Both the position numbers and the translations under genes were made by a program. 64,000 bases of DNA from Coprococcus phoceensis (GTDB lineage: Bacteria; Bacillota; Clostridia; Lachnospirales; Lachnospiraceae): positions 482,011-546,010 of the forward strand of contig NZ_FNWC01000006.1 in the NCBI RefSeq assembly GCF_900104635.1. The letters are read 5' to 3'. Of this stretch, positions 1,346-21,946 are shown in pieces (within the stretch, counting starts at the first letter, position 1; each line of letters starts with the position of its first letter). Below the pieces are notes generated by a model that saw only the letters and a program-made list of their open reading frames with translations, ran no database searches and was not told the DNA's origin.

Positions 1346-1753
1346 CTAAACAGTTCCATTAACCAGATCGGCAATTGTTATATGAAAGAAATAATCATGT
1401 ACAAGATTGTCGAATTTTTTCCACATAGGCAACGTTTTACAGTGGGAGCTTCTGGAACAAGTTTTCGTATCGGGAGCCAGGCAGGCTACCGGTGTAAGGC
1501 TGCCTTCCATCAATTCTAAAATTTCTCCTACATTATATTCTTCAGGGCTGGCAGTTAGTCGGTAACCACCGCCTTTTCCGCTGATTCCGGTTAACAATCC
1601 TTTCCCGACAAGTATTTTTACAATCTGCTGAAGATATTTTTCTGATATTCCCTGTCTTTTTGCAATTTCTTTCAAGGGAACATATGTGGTTGTATCTTGT
1701 TCAGCCAAATCAATCAGTACGCGTAGGGCATAGCGCCCTTTGGTTGAGATCAT
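1346..1753 (-). CDS. Rrf2-family transcriptional regulator (CymR/IscR-like)
   Basis: A 135-residue protein, the usual Rrf2 length. The N-terminus MISTKGRYALRVLIDLA and the winged-helix segment IAKRQGISEKYLQQIVKIL (residues 30-48), with the wing SGKGGGYRL (58-66), are diagnostic. Three cysteines follow at 91, 99 and 105, in the region where IscR carries its cluster-binding cysteines, although the spacing differs. The start ATG (complement of 1751-1753) has AAAGGAGG just upstream. The gene is divergent from a four-gene amino acid importer, with two matching palindromes between. I infer a CymR-type repressor of cystine uptake that also controls itself. An Fe-S sensor is the alternative. Confidence 0.9.
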   Translation of the reverse strand: MISTKGRYALRVLIDLAEQDTTTYVPLKEIAKRQGISEKYLQQIVKILVGKGLLTGISGKGGGYRLTASPEEYNVGEILELMEGSLTPVACLAPDTKTCSRSSHCKTLPMWKKFDNLVHDYFFHITIADLVNGTV

Positions 1754-1819: not shown

Positions 1820-1838
1820 ACCTATTGACATAGTAGGT
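1820..1838. promoter_or_regulatory. operator B, second ACCTA-N9-TAGGT palindrome
   Basis: This copy has the same arms, the same nine-base gap and a shared TT after the first arm, 46 bp from operator A. It overlaps the -35 hexamer of the rightward promoter. Occupancy would block transcription of the leader peptide and importer. Confidence 0.7.
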
Positions 1839-1853
1839 GAATGGGTGTAATAT
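1825..1853 (+). promoter_or_regulatory. sigma-A promoter of the leader peptide and importer operon
   Basis: TTGACA (1825-1830) and TAATAT (1848-1853) are separated by 17 bp. The start point would fall near 1860, about 40 bases before the leader peptide start. Confidence 0.75.
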
Positions 1854-1898
1854 TACAACAACGAATTTGAGTAGACTATGATTAAGGAGGCGAGTGCA

Positions 1899-2027
1899 GT
1901 GAAAATTTATAACATTACTGTAAATAATATGATGTGTTTCTGTCGAATGATTTTTTCCCGGGCATTTTTATATGGCCAGGTGTTTCGACATACATTGCTG
2001 TGCGCCTGTAAAGAACATTTAGATTAA
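1899..2027 (+). CDS. 42-residue cysteine-rich leader peptide
   Basis: A GTG start at 1899 has an AAGGAGG ribosome binding site at 1884-1890. The frame reads V/MKIYNITVNN, then MMCFCRMIF, and later LLCACKEHLD, stopping at 2025-2027. It holds four cysteines as two C-x-C pairs (residues 13/15 and 35/37) and no domain. A terminator follows 22 bases later and the first importer gene begins past it. This is the arrangement of an attenuation leader: ribosome position on the Cys codons would report charged tRNA-Cys. The alternative is a small secreted or metal-binding peptide, but it has no signal peptide. Function is inferred from context only. Confidence 0.6.
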   Translation: MKIYNITVNNMMCFCRMIFSRAFLYGQVFRHTLLCACKEHLD

Positions 2028-2055
2028 ATGTTACATATGCCATTTTGTCCGGGAG
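1955..2055 (+). promoter_or_regulatory. candidate antiterminator pairing in the leader
   Basis: TTCCCGGGCA (1955-1964, within the leader peptide frame) can pair with TGTCCGGGAG (2046-2055) over ten positions with two wobbles. The second strand contains most of the 5' arm of the following terminator, so the two structures exclude each other. This is a hand-found pairing, not a folded prediction. Confidence 0.4.
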
Positions 2056-2077
2056 TTGAAAGACTCCCGTTTTTTTT
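2050..2077 (+). terminator. intrinsic terminator (attenuator) before the importer
   Basis: CGGGAGT (2050-2056) pairs perfectly with ACTCCCG (2063-2069), loop of six, followed by eight T residues (2070-2077). It lies between the leader peptide stop and the first importer gene, in the direction of transcription. It would therefore cut expression unless disrupted. Confidence 0.85.
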
Positions 2078-2131
2078 CGCTCAATTTCGGAAAATGTAAA
2101 AGCACAATAAGAGAAAGAGAGGATATTTATT

Positions 2132-3004
2132 ATGAGAAAGAAGTTTTTGAAAAAAATCAGTACAGTAGGTCTTGCAGCGGTGGCGGCAGTCGGATTATTA
2201 GCAGGATGCGGAAAGACAGACCAGTCGTCAAAATCATCAAAAACAATCTATAGAACAGTGGATGAGATTAAGAAAAGCGGTACCATCAATATAGGCGTAT
2301 TTTCAGATAAAGCTCCATTTGGGTATGTAGATGAAAATGGAGAGTATCAAGGATACGATATTTATTTTGCCGAAAGACTTGGAAAGGATCTCGGGGTAAA
2401 GATTAACTATGTATCTACCGAGGCGGCGAACCGTATTGAGTATCTGCAGACTGGGAAGGTTGATGTGATTCTTGCAAACTTTACAGTGACAGATGAAAGA
2501 GCAGAAGAAGTTGATTTTGCTTTGCCATACATGAATGTTTCTCTTGGTGTGGTGTCGCATAAGGAGCATGTGATAACTGACCTGAGTCAGGTTGGTGCGG
2601 ATGAACAGGTGATTGTAATTTCGGGAACTACAGCAGAGACTTATCTGACGAAGAATTATCCGGATATTAAATTACAGAAATTTGATACATATGCAGCAGC
2701 AAAAAGTGCATTTGAGAATGGAACCGGAGTTGCATGGGCGAATGACAACACAGAAGTTATAGCATTTGCGAAAGAAAATGAAGGGTATACCATTGGAATT
2801 GACTCACTTGGAAGTTCGGATACGATTGCACCGGCTGTTACAAAAGGAAACACCTCTCTGTTAGACTGGCTGAATGAAGAAATAGAGACATTGGGAAAAG
2901 AGAAATTTTTCCATAAAGATTATGAGGAAACGCTTGCGGATGCTTATGGACTTGATTACGAAGATACGCTGGTAGTAGAAAGTGGTGTTGTGGAGAGCAA
3001 CTAA
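2132..3004 (+). CDS. amino acid (probably cystine) ABC importer, substrate-binding lipoprotein
   Basis: 290 residues. The N-terminus has positive charges, a hydrophobic stretch and lipobox LLAGC with Cys26, so it should be a membrane-anchored extracellular lipoprotein. The rest (about 50-285) is a family 3 solute-binding fold: INIGVFSDKAPFGYVDENG, then GYDIYFAERLGKDLG and DVILANFTVTDERAEEVDF, typical of polar amino acid receptors. Two permeases and an ATPase follow. The specificity for cystine is inferred from the Rrf2/CymR-like regulator and the Cys-rich leader upstream; glutamine, glutamate or arginine cannot be excluded from sequence alone. Confidence 0.88.
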   Translation: MRKKFLKKISTVGLAAVAAVGLLAGCGKTDQSSKSSKTIYRTVDEIKKSGTINIGVFSDKAPFGYVDENGEYQGYDIYFAERLGKDLGVKINYVSTEAANRIEYLQTGKVDVILANFTVTDERAEEVDFALPYMNVSLGVVSHKEHVITDLSQVGADEQVIVISGTTAETYLTKNYPDIKLQKFDTYAAAKSAFENGTGVAWANDNTEVIAFAKENEGYTIGIDSLGSSDTIAPAVTKGNTSLLDWLNEEIETLGKEKFFHKDYEETLADAYGLDYEDTLVVESGVVESN

Positions 3005-3026: not shown

Positions 3027-3686
3027 ATGAATTGGGAAGCAATGAAATCATACCTTCCGCTATATGAGAAGGCTTGTATATTAACTTTAAAGATTGGTTG
3101 GATTGGTATTTTGTTTGCGATTGTAATTGGTTTGTTCTGTGCTTTGATTCGGCATTATAAAGTGCCGGTTCTTAGCACGATCGCAGGGGGATATATCGAA
3201 TTTTTCCGGAATACTCCATTGCTGGTACAGCTGTTTTTTCTGTATTTTGGTTTGCCGAAATTGGGAATATCCATTGGAGCAGAATTTTGTGGAGTGTTAG
3301 GATTGGCGCTTTTGGGCGGCGCATATATGGCGGAAGCTTTTCGAAGCGGTTTAGAGTCTGTAGAACAAATCCAGATGGAAAGTGCGCTTTCGCTGGGAAT
3401 GAGCAGGCAGCAGGCGGTGAGGCATATTATTCTCCCGCAGGCGATTTCAATCAGTGTACCGGCATTTGTCGCAAATATCATATTTTTGCTGAAGGAGACG
3501 AGTGTGTTTTCAGCAATCAGTTTGATGGACTTGATGTTTACGGCAAAAGACTTGATAGGCTTGTATTATAAAACAACGGAATGCCTCGTGCTGCTTGTGA
3601 TTTTTTATCTCATTATTTTATTGCCGGTATCCCTTATTGGGAGCATTGTAGAAAGGAAGGTGCGTTATGCAGGATTTGGGGTTTGA
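3027..3686 (+). CDS. polar amino acid ABC transporter permease, first
   Basis: 219 residues of the HisM/GlnP type with about five membrane segments. The N-terminal block YIEFFRNTPLLVQLFFLYFG is the family hallmark, and the ATPase-contact EAA loop reads ESALSLGMSRQQAVRHIILP. AAGGAG precedes the ATG. It ends inside the start of the second permease gene (20-base overlap), so both are made together and probably pair as a heterodimer in the membrane. Confidence 0.92.
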   Translation: MNWEAMKSYLPLYEKACILTLKIGWIGILFAIVIGLFCALIRHYKVPVLSTIAGGYIEFFRNTPLLVQLFFLYFGLPKLGISIGAEFCGVLGLALLGGAYMAEAFRSGLESVEQIQMESALSLGMSRQQAVRHIILPQAISISVPAFVANIIFLLKETSVFSAISLMDLMFTAKDLIGLYYKTTECLVLLVIFYLIILLPVSLIGSIVERKVRYAGFGV

Positions 3687-4341
3687 TGTTTTGCTAAAAG
3701 GATCTAACATGCAGCGTCTTCTAATAGGGCTTTGGACCTCTTTGCGAATCAGCTTGATAGCAGTTGTGATTAGTATTTTTCTCGGCTTGATAGTGGGAGT
3801 TTTAATGACAAGGAAAAATATAATTCTCAAGGTGTTCACCCGTGTTTATTTAGAAATTGTAAGAATTATGCCTCAGCTGGTATTACTTTTTATTGTTTTC
3901 TTTGGAGCGACCAGAGTGTTTGGAATCGATATTGAGGCAGAAAAAGCATCTATTATTGTATTTAGTTTTTGGGGAACAGCGGAAATGGCGGATCTTGTAC
4001 GCGGTGCATTGATCAGCATTCCAAAACACCAATATGAGAGTGCAAAAGCATTGGGGATGAGTGAGCTGCAAATCTATTTACATATTGTAATGCCGCAGAC
4101 ATTGCGAAGATTAATTCCACTGTCCATGAATCTCATCACAAGAATGATCAAGACAACTAGCTTGATTATGATGATCGGGGTGGTCGAAGTCTTAAAAGTT
4201 GGTCAGCAGATTATTGAGGCGAACCGTACTTCGTCTCCAAATGCGGCATTTGGTGTTTTTGCAGCGGTGTTTGTCTTATACTTTATTGCATGCTGGCCGA
4301 TCAGTATGTTTTCAAAATACTTGGAAAGGAAATGGGTATAA
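3667..4341 (+). CDS. polar amino acid ABC transporter permease, second
   Basis: 224 residues, homologous in layout to the preceding permease but diverged: [20 protein letters not shown] replaces the usual E-x-x-R-x-T-P-L block, and the EAA loop is [20 protein letters not shown]. The start lies within the previous gene and the ATPase ATG comes two bases after the stop. Two different permeases, rather than one, match TcyL/TcyM- and HisQM-type systems. Confidence 0.92.
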
Positions 4342-4342
4342 T

Positions 4343-5095
4343 ATGGCGGAAGAATTAATAAAAATAGAGCAGGTTACAAAGAAATACAATGAAAATGTTA
4401 TTTTCGAGGATTTGTCATTATCTATTCGAAAAGGAGAGGTTGTAGTGATTGTTGGTCCTTCCGGATGCGGGAAAAGCACCCTTCTTCGGTGTATGAATGG
4501 GCTGGAGCCTATTGAAAAGGGAACAATCAGTTATTGTGGAGAAACCGTAGATGGCAGATCTAAAAATATTATGGAGATTCGCCAGAAAGTGGGGATGGTG
4601 TTCCAAAGCTATGAGCTTTTCCCGCATAAGACAATCCTTCAAAATATCACATTGGCGCCGAAATTGGTGCAGAGTCGTAATAAGCAGGAGACAGAGGCAG
4701 AAGCATTGGAACTTTTAAAACGGGTCGGGCTGGAAGAGAAGAAAGACAGCTATCCACGTCAACTTTCCGGAGGACAGAAACAGCGTGTTGCAATTGTGCG
4801 GGCTCTTTGCATGCATCCGGAAGTGCTTTTGTTTGATGAGGTGACAGCGGCACTGGATCCGGAGATGGTGCGGGAGGTGCTTGAGGTGCTTTTAGATCTC
4901 GCAAAACAGGGACGTACGATGGTCATCGTGACACATGAAATGTCTTTTGCAAAGGCAATAGCAGATCGTGTAATCTTTTTAGATAAAGGAATCATTGTGG
5001 AGGAAGGAAAAGCAGAAGAGTTTTTTGAATACCCGAAAACAGAGCGGGCGCAGAGATTTCTTCATACATTTACATACGAAAAAGTGAAAAAATAA
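4343..5095 (+). CDS. polar amino acid ABC transporter ATP-binding protein
   Basis: 250 residues starting [15 protein letters not shown] at ATG 4343, with GGAAAGGAAATGG upstream. The longer open frame back to 4199 only overlaps the permease. Walker A is GPSGCGKST (38-46), signature LSGGQKQR (141-148) and Walker B VLLFDE (161-166), followed by a D-loop and the H-loop in [13 protein letters not shown]. It energises the importer from the cytoplasm and closes the operon. Confidence 0.93.
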
Positions 5096-5252: not shown

Positions 5253-5329
5253 CTGCAAAATTTCAGGATAATTTCTTGCGGGCGGTTGTTTCTTTTGAAA
5301 ATAGAAAAATCCAGCTAGGAGTGGTGAGT

Positions 5330-5833
5330 GTGTATAATCAATTGACACAAAAAGATATTGATGCAATGAAAGCGGAGATAGAACATCGAAAAGTCGTGGT
5401 GCGAAAAGAACTGTTGGAAGATGTGAAAGAGGCGAGAGCCCATGGTGATCTGAGTGAAAATTTTGAATACCATGCTGCGAAGAAAGAAAAAAACAGGAAC
5501 GAAAGCAGAATACGGTATTTGGAAAGAATGATAAAGACAGCGGAAGTGATCAGTGATGAATCAAAAGACGATGAAATCGGACTGAACAAGATTGTGGAGT
5601 TGTATTTTGAAGACGAAGATGATGTAGAGACATATAAAATTGTGACGACTGTGCGTGGAAATTCTCTTCAGGGACTTGTAAGTACAGAGTCTCCGATTGG
5701 AAAAGCATTGCTCGGCCACAAGGTAGGGGACAAAGTGTGGATTCCGATCAACGCTAATGCAGGATACTATGTAGTTGTGAAGTCAATCAAAATAGCGGAT
5801 CCGGATGAGGAAGATAAGCTGAGAAGTTTTTAA
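5330..5833 (+). CDS. greA: transcript cleavage factor GreA/GreB
   Basis: I place the start at GTG 5330 (VYNQLTQKDIDAMKAEIEHRK), 8 bases after TAGGAG, giving 167 residues against about 158 for typical GreA; GTG 5324 is equally possible. Upstream frame to 5237 looks non-coding. The N-terminal coiled coil with ARAHGDLSENFEYHAAKKEK carries the acidic-tip residues (D and E of GDLSENFEYHAAK) that stimulate RNA polymerase to cut backtracked RNA. The C-terminal FKBP-like domain contains SPIGKALLGHKVGD. It acts at the secondary channel of RNA polymerase and stands alone between two intergenic gaps. Confidence 0.92.
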   Translation: MYNQLTQKDIDAMKAEIEHRKVVVRKELLEDVKEARAHGDLSENFEYHAAKKEKNRNESRIRYLERMIKTAEVISDESKDDEIGLNKIVELYFEDEDDVETYKIVTTVRGNSLQGLVSTESPIGKALLGHKVGDKVWIPINANAGYYVVVKSIKIADPDEEDKLRSF

Positions 5834-21288: not shown

Positions 21289-21363
21289 CGGGGTGTGGCT
21301 CAGCTTGGCTAGAGCGCCTGGTTTGGGACCAGGAGGTCGCAGGTTCGAATCCTGTCACCCCGA
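21289..21363 (+). tRNA. tRNA-Pro (TGG)
   Basis: 75 nt. Acceptor CGGGGTG/CACCCCG, anticodon arm CCTGG-TTTGGGA-CCAGG giving TGG, T-arm CAGGTTCGAATCCTG, discriminator A. CCA not encoded. Confidence 0.95.
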
Positions 21364-21367
21364 CTTT

Positions 21368-21438
21368 GCGGGTGTAGTTCAATGGTAGAACACTAGCCTT
21401 CCAAGCTAGATACGTGGGTTCGATTCCCATCACCCGCT
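21368..21438 (+). tRNA. tRNA-Gly (TCC)
   Basis: 71 nt. Acceptor GCGGGTG/CACCCGC, anticodon arm CTAGC-CTTCCAA-GCTAG giving TCC, discriminator T. Only four bases separate it from tRNA-Pro. Confidence 0.95.
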
Positions 21439-21482
21439 TTCCTAAAGCCTTTTAGAGGATTTGGGAACAGGAAATCAAATGT

Positions 21483-21556
<74 letters not shown>

Positions 21557-21562
21557 CTTTGT

Positions 21563-21637
21563 GGTGGGTATGGTGCAGTTGGTTAGCGCGCCAGATTGTG
21601 GTTCTGGATATCGTGGGTTCGAGTCCCACTATCCACC
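21563..21637 (+). tRNA. tRNA-His (GTG)
   Basis: Acceptor GTGGGTA/TATCCAC plus the extra 5' G (position -1) expected of tRNA-His; anticodon arm CCAGA-TTGTGGT-TCTGG giving GTG; discriminator C. Confidence 0.94.
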
Positions 21638-21646
21638 CTTCTATAG

Positions 21647-21718
21647 TGGGCTATCGCCAAGCGGTAAGGCACAGGACTTTGACTCCTGCATTCGTTGGTT
21701 CGAATCCAACTAGCCCAG
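21647..21718 (+). tRNA. tRNA-Gln (TTG)
   Basis: 72 nt. Acceptor TGGGCTA/TAGCCCA, anticodon arm CAGGA-CTTTGAC-TCCTG giving TTG, discriminator G. Confidence 0.95.
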
Positions 21719-21728
21719 TAATTATTAT

Positions 21729-21801
21729 GGAGCATTAGCTCAGTCGGTAGAGCACTTGACTTTTAATCAAGTTGTCCGGGGTTCGAATCCCCGATGCTTC
21801 A
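21729..21801 (+). tRNA. tRNA-Lys (TTT)
   Basis: 73 nt. Acceptor GGAGCAT/ATGCTTC (one G-T wobble and one A-T), anticodon arm CTTGA-CTTTTAA-TCAAG giving TTT, discriminator A. Confidence 0.94.
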
Positions 21802-21866
21802 CTAAATGGACAAGCGTAAGCTTGTTCATATTTATTCTTCGGGAGATATTCCGATAAATCAGATAT

Positions 21867-21946
21867 GCGGATGTGGCGGAACTGGCAGACGCGCTAGACT
21901 TAGGATCTAGTGGGAGACCGTGCAGGTTCGATTCCTGTCATCCGCA
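21867..21946 (+). tRNA. tRNA-Leu (TAG)
   Basis: 80 nt, class II with a short extra arm (TGGGAGACCGT). Acceptor GCGGATG/CATCCGC, anticodon arm CTAGA-CTTAGGA-TCTAG giving TAG. It is the last gene of the tRNA operon. Confidence 0.94.

Follow-up and report, generated by a model that had tools for sequence, protein, structure and literature searches.

Introduction

Attenuators of the trp/his type possess a leader rich in the regulated residue, a terminator that competes with a mutually exclusive antiterminator, and a choice between the two that depends on ribosome stalling. T-box RNA reads tRNA directly, without a leader frame. The Cys-codon leaders of Mycobacterium and relatives are reportedly termed leaderless in the title of a work by Canestrari from 2020.

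Upstream of cysS in Rhodobacterales the uORFC-8-2 leader carries tandem Cys codons, usually at positions 14-15, together with a terminator, and attenuation through tRNA-Cys has been proposed for it in the accessible part of that text (PMC8632094). Leader frames with Cys codons also precede cys operons of Mycobacterium and relatives, and the accessible part of the source describes those of Mycobacterium as lacking conserved terminator hairpins (PMC1262725). For clostridia, the available sections of another study report a cysteine-specific T-box before cysK and cyst(e)ine uptake genes, the cysteine genes of Clostridium perfringens being run by T-boxes (PMC2940859). A survey from 2010, in its accessible sections, presents hisS/hisZ of bacilli, with a His leader peptide, as classical attenuation in Firmicutes which it deems noticeable, and has this bacillar case of its own as the sole instance known to it of classical leader-peptide attenuation beyond the Proteobacteria and Actinobacteria (PMC2965389).

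Here we analyse an element of a 64,000-nt stretch of Coprococcus phoceensis DNA (this whole stretch is called the window below) and the family of RNA elements to which it belongs. The family resembles the trp/his-type attenuators in its residue-rich leader, its terminator with a mutually exclusive antiterminator and the proposed stall-dependent choice, and differs from them in that cysteine would be the amino acid sensed, in a core conserved at the nucleotide level across different operons, in that two arms, A and B, both pair with the 3' element, and in its combination with an Rrf2-type operator. With uORFC-8-2 it shares a Cys-codon leader, a terminator and the proposed tRNA-Cys attenuation; that leader is reported, in the accessible text, only before alphaproteobacterial cysS, the genes of our family are different, and the two are set apart by description (PMC8632094). 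Unlike the Mycobacterium leaders as the accessible source describes them (PMC1262725), the window's family has an intrinsic terminator, and in contrast to leaders reportedly termed leaderless it has a Shine-Dalgarno sequence. The clostridial Cys T-box, as the available sections present it (PMC2940859), answers to the same signal and precedes the same kinds of genes, whereas the window element has a leader frame and no T-box match. The bacillar hisS/hisZ leader, judged from the accessible sections, belongs to the same classical leader-peptide type and concerns histidine and unrelated genes (PMC2965389). In the literature searched (open papers only, some of them in part, which leaves absence unproven) we found no comparable Cys attenuator in Clostridia; the family, very probably a trp-type attenuator in kind, is new as a family as far as this search goes.

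Results

The leader and its surroundings

The initial annotation had described a 42-codon frame with a strong ribosome binding site and four Cys codons in two pairs, and our coordinates agree with it throughout, the Cys codons 13, 15, 35 and 37 starting at 1935, 1941, 2001 and 2007. On one side of the frame is a divergent gene of the Rrf2 family, on the other an amino-acid ABC importer of four genes:

1346..1753, minus strand: divergent Rrf2-family regulator gene (NCBIfam rrf2_super, 121 bits, cut-off 73.3)
1821..1837, no strand assigned: operator-like palindrome CCTA-N9-TAGG over the -35 box, a pattern that recurs near the leaders of relatives
1825..1853, plus strand: promoter TTGACA, 17-nt spacer, TAATAT (10/12 matches)
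1884..1890, plus strand: Shine-Dalgarno sequence AAGGAGG of the leader, 8-nt spacer to GTG 1899
GTG 1899 to TAA 2027, plus strand: leader frame of 42 codons
1935..1943, plus strand: codons 13 and 15, a Cys cluster that is conserved across relatives and is proposed as the place of the stall
2001..2009, plus strand: second Cys pair, codons 35 and 37, overlapping the 3' arm of hairpin P2, position not conserved
2132..3004, plus strand: substrate-binding lipoprotein of family 3 (PF00497; closest solved relatives 2yjp and 1xt8)
3027..3686, plus strand: amino-acid ABC permease (NCBIfam, Pfam)
3667..4341, plus strand: amino-acid ABC permease (NCBIfam, Pfam)
4343..5095, plus strand: ABC ATPase, best NCBIfam match TcyN, below cut-off (297.8 of 406 bits)

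The leader matches no NCBIfam or Pfam family at E <= 1, and no Rfam family reaches its gathering score over the element. The T-box model RF00230 has no match at gathering score in the window and is absent from the six E-value matches for 1750-2140; elsewhere in the genome 11 T-box matches occur. A T-box, or another Rfam element, was accordingly ruled out as the identity of the element. The divergent regulator satisfies the superfamily model, its score with the CymR equivalog (90.4 bits) staying below the cut-off of 195.

The naming of the importer as a probable cystine importer holds in part. The NCBIfam cystine equivalogs do not reach their cut-offs (297.8 of 406 bits for the TcyN ATPase, 85.5 of 312 for the cystine-binding protein); in its favour, the closest solved relatives of the binding protein, 2yjp and 1xt8, are presumably L-cysteine receptors. 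The predicted structure of the binding protein is poor, with a mean pLDDT of 44.5. A GreA-family gene directly follows the importer (5327-5833; TIGR01462, 141.1 bits, cut-off 139), and a cluster of seven tRNA genes lies at 21289-21946 of the window.

Relatives of the element

When searched as a protein at E <= 1, the 42-residue leader peptide finds matches in 201 of 397 genomes, which are probably chance ones for the most part; on its own the peptide is too short to give clean results. Among 30 of these matches made into loci, six possessed the DNA pattern (L002, L003, L005, L008, L010, L018), and these six and the window's own element were built into a covariance model, R1, with the A-A' helix alone as its structure (arms listed below). 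R1 matches 50 of 397 same-family genomes at E <= 0.05, including the window's own and at least one false one (G134), and 27 of 392 genomes of an order-level draw at E <= 0.01, seven of which are the own genome or had been matched before. From 65 R1 matches 62 were kept: G162:C92 and G070 (E 0.015 and 0.035) were left out, and G134, having no core, was dropped.

A scan of named genomes with the DNA pattern found at least 119 stretches. The hosts, judged from 80 titles among those listed, are mostly Lachnospiraceae and other Clostridia, many of them from rumen or gut, and Anaerovibrio lipolyticus DSM 3074 and Anaerovibrio sp. JC8 are among the pattern matches listed. Matches in Ruegeria (L148) and Pseudomonas (L190) have no A' and were taken as chance; these two and eight others, some cut by contig ends or N, make up the 10 of 120 pattern places that were dropped for want of a recognised A'. 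At 85% ungapped identity, 172 elements were reduced to 157 non-redundant ones, 62 found by the model and 95 by the pattern. In the 95 pattern-found elements TGY CGAATG and most of arm A give no evidence, being fixed by the pattern; nor does the invariance of the ATG core, since this core was imposed as the anchor.

As R1 contains TGT, a further model, R2, was built free of Cys codons from 41 elements starting 3' of the core ATG. Its seeds were 45 elements drawn from 130 eligible ones (A' motif, T run, A-A' distance of 60-95), of which four (L081, L111, L176, L177) were removed by hand. At E <= 0.01 R2 matches 49 of 387 genomes, and 57 of its 62 matches are known elements; R2, run on 387 genomes where R1 had been run on 397, missed five of the 62 R1 elements. 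Outside the known set it gave five weak matches, L328-L331 and L332. The first four (L328, L329, L330, L331), judged in alignment, lack the layout and consist of short hairpins or partial matches; they appear spurious. At the phylum level, with E <= 1e-4, five of 378 genomes matched, namely the window's own and four others, and of the four new elements three precede MetY and one precedes permeases. Judged from these sequence comparisons, the window element belongs to a conserved family of RNAs for which Rfam has no matching family.

The downstream MetY of L334, L335 and L336, from another class of the same phylum, is 79-82% identical to the same-family MetY of G120, which suggests transfer of the operon together with its element. 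Some genomes carry two to four copies before different operons (L074 in G007; L062 and L102 in G357; L072, L075, L097 and L061 in G236), and in G007 two elements stand in tandem, before MetY and before an operon of a cystathionine enzyme and CysK.

Genes downstream of the family

The genes that follow were counted for 153 non-redundant elements with at least 500 nt of downstream sequence. The first recognised gene within 700 nt resembles MetY in 81, the binding protein of the window in 28 and MetQ in 13; then come resemblances to amino-acid permeases (6), cystathionine gamma-synthase/lyase (5), M20 peptidase (4), a glutathione-transferase-like protein (3; named by eye, with no NCBIfam family at E <= 1e-10), ABC ATPase (2), CysK (2) and six others once each, and three elements have none. 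A gene of Cys/Met synthesis or an amino-acid importer gene lies on the same strand within about 4 kb of 144 of the 153, the main kinds being O-acetylhomoserine sulfhydrylase, CysK, cystathionine enzymes and amino-acid importers; the importer counts are generous, as the permease and ATPase queries are generic. One element stands before a gene for (2S)-3-sulfopropanediol dehydratase (1397.7 bits; the cut-off is 1000).

Eight genomes were chosen for comparison, six that carry the element and two from the window's genus that lack it. Four of the eight (G000, G268, G037, G225) encode an ortholog of the window's binding protein (E <= 1e-30), and in all four the element sits before it. In L099 and L094, a single polypeptide joins a relative of this binding protein to a MetQ/NlpA-type domain.

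Conservation of the frame and of the Cys codons

A start preceded by a Shine-Dalgarno sequence of at least 5 bases, with a frame open through arm A, is present in the leader frame of 130 of the 157 elements; the other two frames give 4 and 2. Cys codons stand 2-4 codons before the ATG core in 62/62 model-found elements, the search pattern having forced a Cys there in the remaining 95. All 57 elements re-found by the Cys-free R2 have the cluster, and so do all four further elements from the phylum level; this test is strong and not fully independent, as the R2 seeds were originally found by Cys-containing queries. Codon -3, which the pattern leaves free, is Cys in 65 of the 95 pattern-found elements. 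At codons -3 to -6, near the cluster, the commonest residue where Cys is absent is Met (ATG), as in M-C-M-C and M-M-C-C.

Late Cys codons are enriched as well (276 of 2554 tail codons vs 26 of 1352 N-terminal codons) and occur in 140 of 157 leaders at no fixed place; the leader of G194 (L095) stops short of their position. It had been proposed that the ribosome stalls at codons 35-37, and this part of the earlier reading does not hold: the conserved site is that of codons 13/15, and 17 of 157 leaders have no late Cys at all. The expectation that Cys codons are conserved wherever the terminator is kept is borne out for the first pair and only partly for the second (140/157, unfixed).

The competing helices

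The following RNA features, all on the plus strand, were recognised in the window:

1862..1871: 5' arm of helix P0, lying close to where the RNA is expected to begin and able to pair with 2080-2089 save for one mismatch
1941..1947: 5' arm of the P1 hairpin, TGTCGAA, which would lie under the stalled ribosome in the proposed model
1955..1964: antiterminator arm A, covarying with 2046-2055
1972..1976: antiterminator arm B (ATGGC), pairing with 2039-2043 in the window fold
1977..1983: 5' arm of the P2 hairpin, predicted in the window fold to pair with 2002-2008
1984..1990: 3' arm of the P1 hairpin, TTCGACA, pairing with 1941-1947
2039..2043: antiterminator arm B' (GCCAT), partner of 1972-1976 by covariation and window fold
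2046..2055: antiterminator arm A', of which 2050-2055 is common to the 5' arm of the terminator
2050..2077: intrinsic terminator with an 8-bp stem (2050-2069), GAAA loop and eight T (2070-2077)
2080..2089: 3' arm of helix P0, which exists in read-through RNA only

The terminator, which the initial annotation had placed 22 bases 3' of the leader stop, is present there, and the region 1700-2200 contains one terminator against 0.1 expected from shuffles. The pairing of 1955-1964 with 2046-2055 that was noted as competing with it is likewise present, covaries, and exceeds chance by far; a pairing check gave 89% complementarity for 1956-1964/2046-2054. Over 64 aligned R1 matches, an alignment that was fitted to the A-A' helix and still contains two rows that are spurious (L088 and the match of L094 on the plus strand), 96.6% of the A-A' cells are paired and 9 of 10 pairs are changed on both sides. 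This alignment has 39 cells with double-sided changes; its shuffles have 7.2 +/- 2.2, none of the 500 reaching 39, and the signal collapses once the helix is slid. In A4 (MAFFT, 41 elements) 99.3% of the A-A' cells are paired, partly because the members were selected for an A'; of the 10 pairs, 3 vary on both sides and 5 do not vary. The unselected B-B' helix in A4 has 79.5% of its cells paired and all 5 of 5 pairs changed on both sides.

If the best candidate in each element is taken, 150 of 157 have an A' in which 8 or more of the 10 pairs form, a clear one being missing in 7, and a terminator-like hairpin starts within A' in 140 of these 150, a clear terminator being missing in 10. The distance from the ATG core to arm A is identical in 60 of 62 model-found elements. 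The alignment of relatives thus bears out what had been expected of it: the antiterminator pairing covaries, the terminator is kept (140/150) and so is the first Cys cluster, and the combination of a Cys-codon leader with a competing antiterminator recurs.

For the 9-mer in which CGAATG follows the last Cys codon, complementarity to the leader 3' of it exceeds that of shuffles (mean z -1.19 over 157 elements; three control pairs gave -0.04, -0.21 and -0.03), which supports the P1 hairpin, formed in the window by 1941-1947 with 1984-1990. This backing from sequence statistics does not extend to single pairs. Arm A is weakly complementary to the B region (mean z -0.42).

An inverted repeat, P0, surrounds the whole element (CGAATTTGAG / CTCAATTTCG, one mismatch). 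P0-like pairs, some with compensating changes, occur in a subgroup (G235, G225, G268, L121, L183, L189, L209, L210, L222); over 129 elements the mean z is -0.10, which does not support P0 as a family-wide feature, and the helix was observed within the window's subgroup alone.

Folding with a masked ribosome

The ribosome was masked codon by codon and the RNA then folded, for the 52 elements whose A' was located by motif. In the window the antiterminator probability reaches 0.87 with the A site at codon 15, against 0.06 without a ribosome, 0.00 with the ribosome at the stop codon and 0.03-0.14 for stalls 18 to 30 nt 5' of the core ATG. Across four footprint sizes it takes values of 0.55-0.87 at codon 15, 0.00-0.21 at codon 35 and 0.02-0.64 at codon 37. 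Codons 35-37 as the main switch were rejected as a conserved site, the late Cys being unfixed in the family and weaker in this folding.

Over the 52 elements the mean antiterminator is 0.70 with the A site two codons before the ATG and 0.39 and 0.07 one and two codons later, so that codon -2, which is Cys in most of these elements, would be about the last stall that leaves arm A free. Larger footprints shift this edge by about one codon, and the mean at codon -2 drops to 0.52-0.56. On the upstream side the mean is not specific to Cys, any earlier stall giving 0.67-0.72. Without a ribosome it is 0.62, with a terminator of 0.27, and at most late codons it is 0.4-0.6. When the terminator value is subtracted from the antiterminator value, a stall at codon -2 exceeds a ribosome at the stop codon in 31 of 52 elements and falls below it in 9; compared with ribosome-free RNA, it lies above in 21 and below in 6. 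Late Cys codons are barely better than other late codons (0.28 over 52 codons vs 0.19 over 298). The isolated RNA 1941-2077 folds as the antiterminator, and termination must therefore depend on ribosome position, on the upstream leader sequence or on kinetics. As a model, equilibrium folding supports a switch in the window and stops short of proving a family-wide one, to which the other members fit less well.

The operator-like palindrome

Of the 157 elements, 99 carry CCTA-N6..12-TAGG no more than 110 nt 5' of the leader start; of 438 control windows, 3 do. In 24 of 25 examples inspected the palindrome contains the -35 TTGAC. An Rrf2 relative lies upstream of 22 of the 157 elements, the window's included, where the upstream DNA is of unequal length (at least 700 nt for 144 of 157). 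We infer that an Rrf2 protein binds at the palindrome. The earlier suggestion that the importer is controlled twice gains strength from these comparisons, as the palindrome recurs and the attenuator has relatives, and the counts of 99/157 against 3/438 make dual control look family-wide.

Discussion

From the leader frame with its Cys cluster, the covarying A-A' and B-B' helices, the terminator that overlaps A' and the palindrome at the promoter, all read in sequence, we consider it very probable that the window element is a ribosome-mediated transcription attenuator that senses charged tRNA-Cys. If Cys-tRNA is plentiful, the ribosome would cross arms A and B and reach the stop codon, arm A being held by the ribosome first and by the P1 hairpin next, with A' left free for the terminator. 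If it is scarce, the ribosome would stall at codons 13-15 with its leading edge about at the start of arm A, so that the 5' arm of P1 would be covered and A and B would be free; these would pair with A' and B', the terminator would be blocked and the importer transcribed. The late Cys codons probably offer a second, weaker stall, and control at the promoter by an Rrf2-type repressor probably adds another, independent layer.

One may ask whether the conserved core acts instead as an arrest peptide, where the nascent peptide or the codon context C-C-Arg(CGA)-Met would sense free cysteine, a thiol or a metal and not tRNA charging. The core M-C-C-R-M-x-x-S-R-A does recur, and CGA precedes the ATG in 55 of the 62 model-found elements with CGC as its sole synonymous variant (in the 95 pattern-found elements CGA was part of the search pattern); the S-R-A is, however, explained by the pairing of arm A, CGAATG can be explained by P1, the residues upstream vary, and both TGT and TGC are used at the Cys positions. 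Arrest peptides usually conserve residues further upstream, and we hold such a mechanism to be improbable here. Another account would have a translated leader whose terminator is weak or constitutive, with all regulation coming from the Rrf2 repressor and the Cys codons merely tuning basal read-through. It would agree with the operator-like palindrome near 99 of 157 leaders and with the several members that fold as the antiterminator regardless of the ribosome, but the Cys cluster is present in all 157 elements, although pattern-forced in 95, and thus also in the 58 without the operator pattern, and the antiterminator covaries, which makes this account very unlikely. A metabolite-binding riboswitch or a protein-binding RNA, with the reading frame as a secondary overlap, is the least credible in view of the frame test (130 vs 4 and 2 of 157) and of the well-conserved A4 columns being those of arms A and A', even with core nucleotides strongly conserved and no Rfam family at gathering score.

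Taking attenuation by tRNA-Cys charging as the preferred reading, it would be tempting to suggest, tentatively and with more doubt than confidence, that the Rrf2-type operator and the Cys attenuator form a portable cassette that defines a cysteine regulon in Clostridia and Negativicutes. Such a cassette would join two signals, an Rrf2 cue and the charging of tRNA-Cys; its staged Cys codons may grade the response, and in the subgroup a 5'-3' helix of the read-through RNA may protect the 5' end of the mRNA.

Cys attenuators that form a family in gut and rumen Clostridia would make cysteine sensing by these bacteria directly testable, and would cover sulfhydrylase, CysK, cystathionine enzymes, importers and the sulfopropanediol dehydratase. 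The covariance model is also a means to locate sulfur genes of unknown function in these gut and rumen Clostridia.
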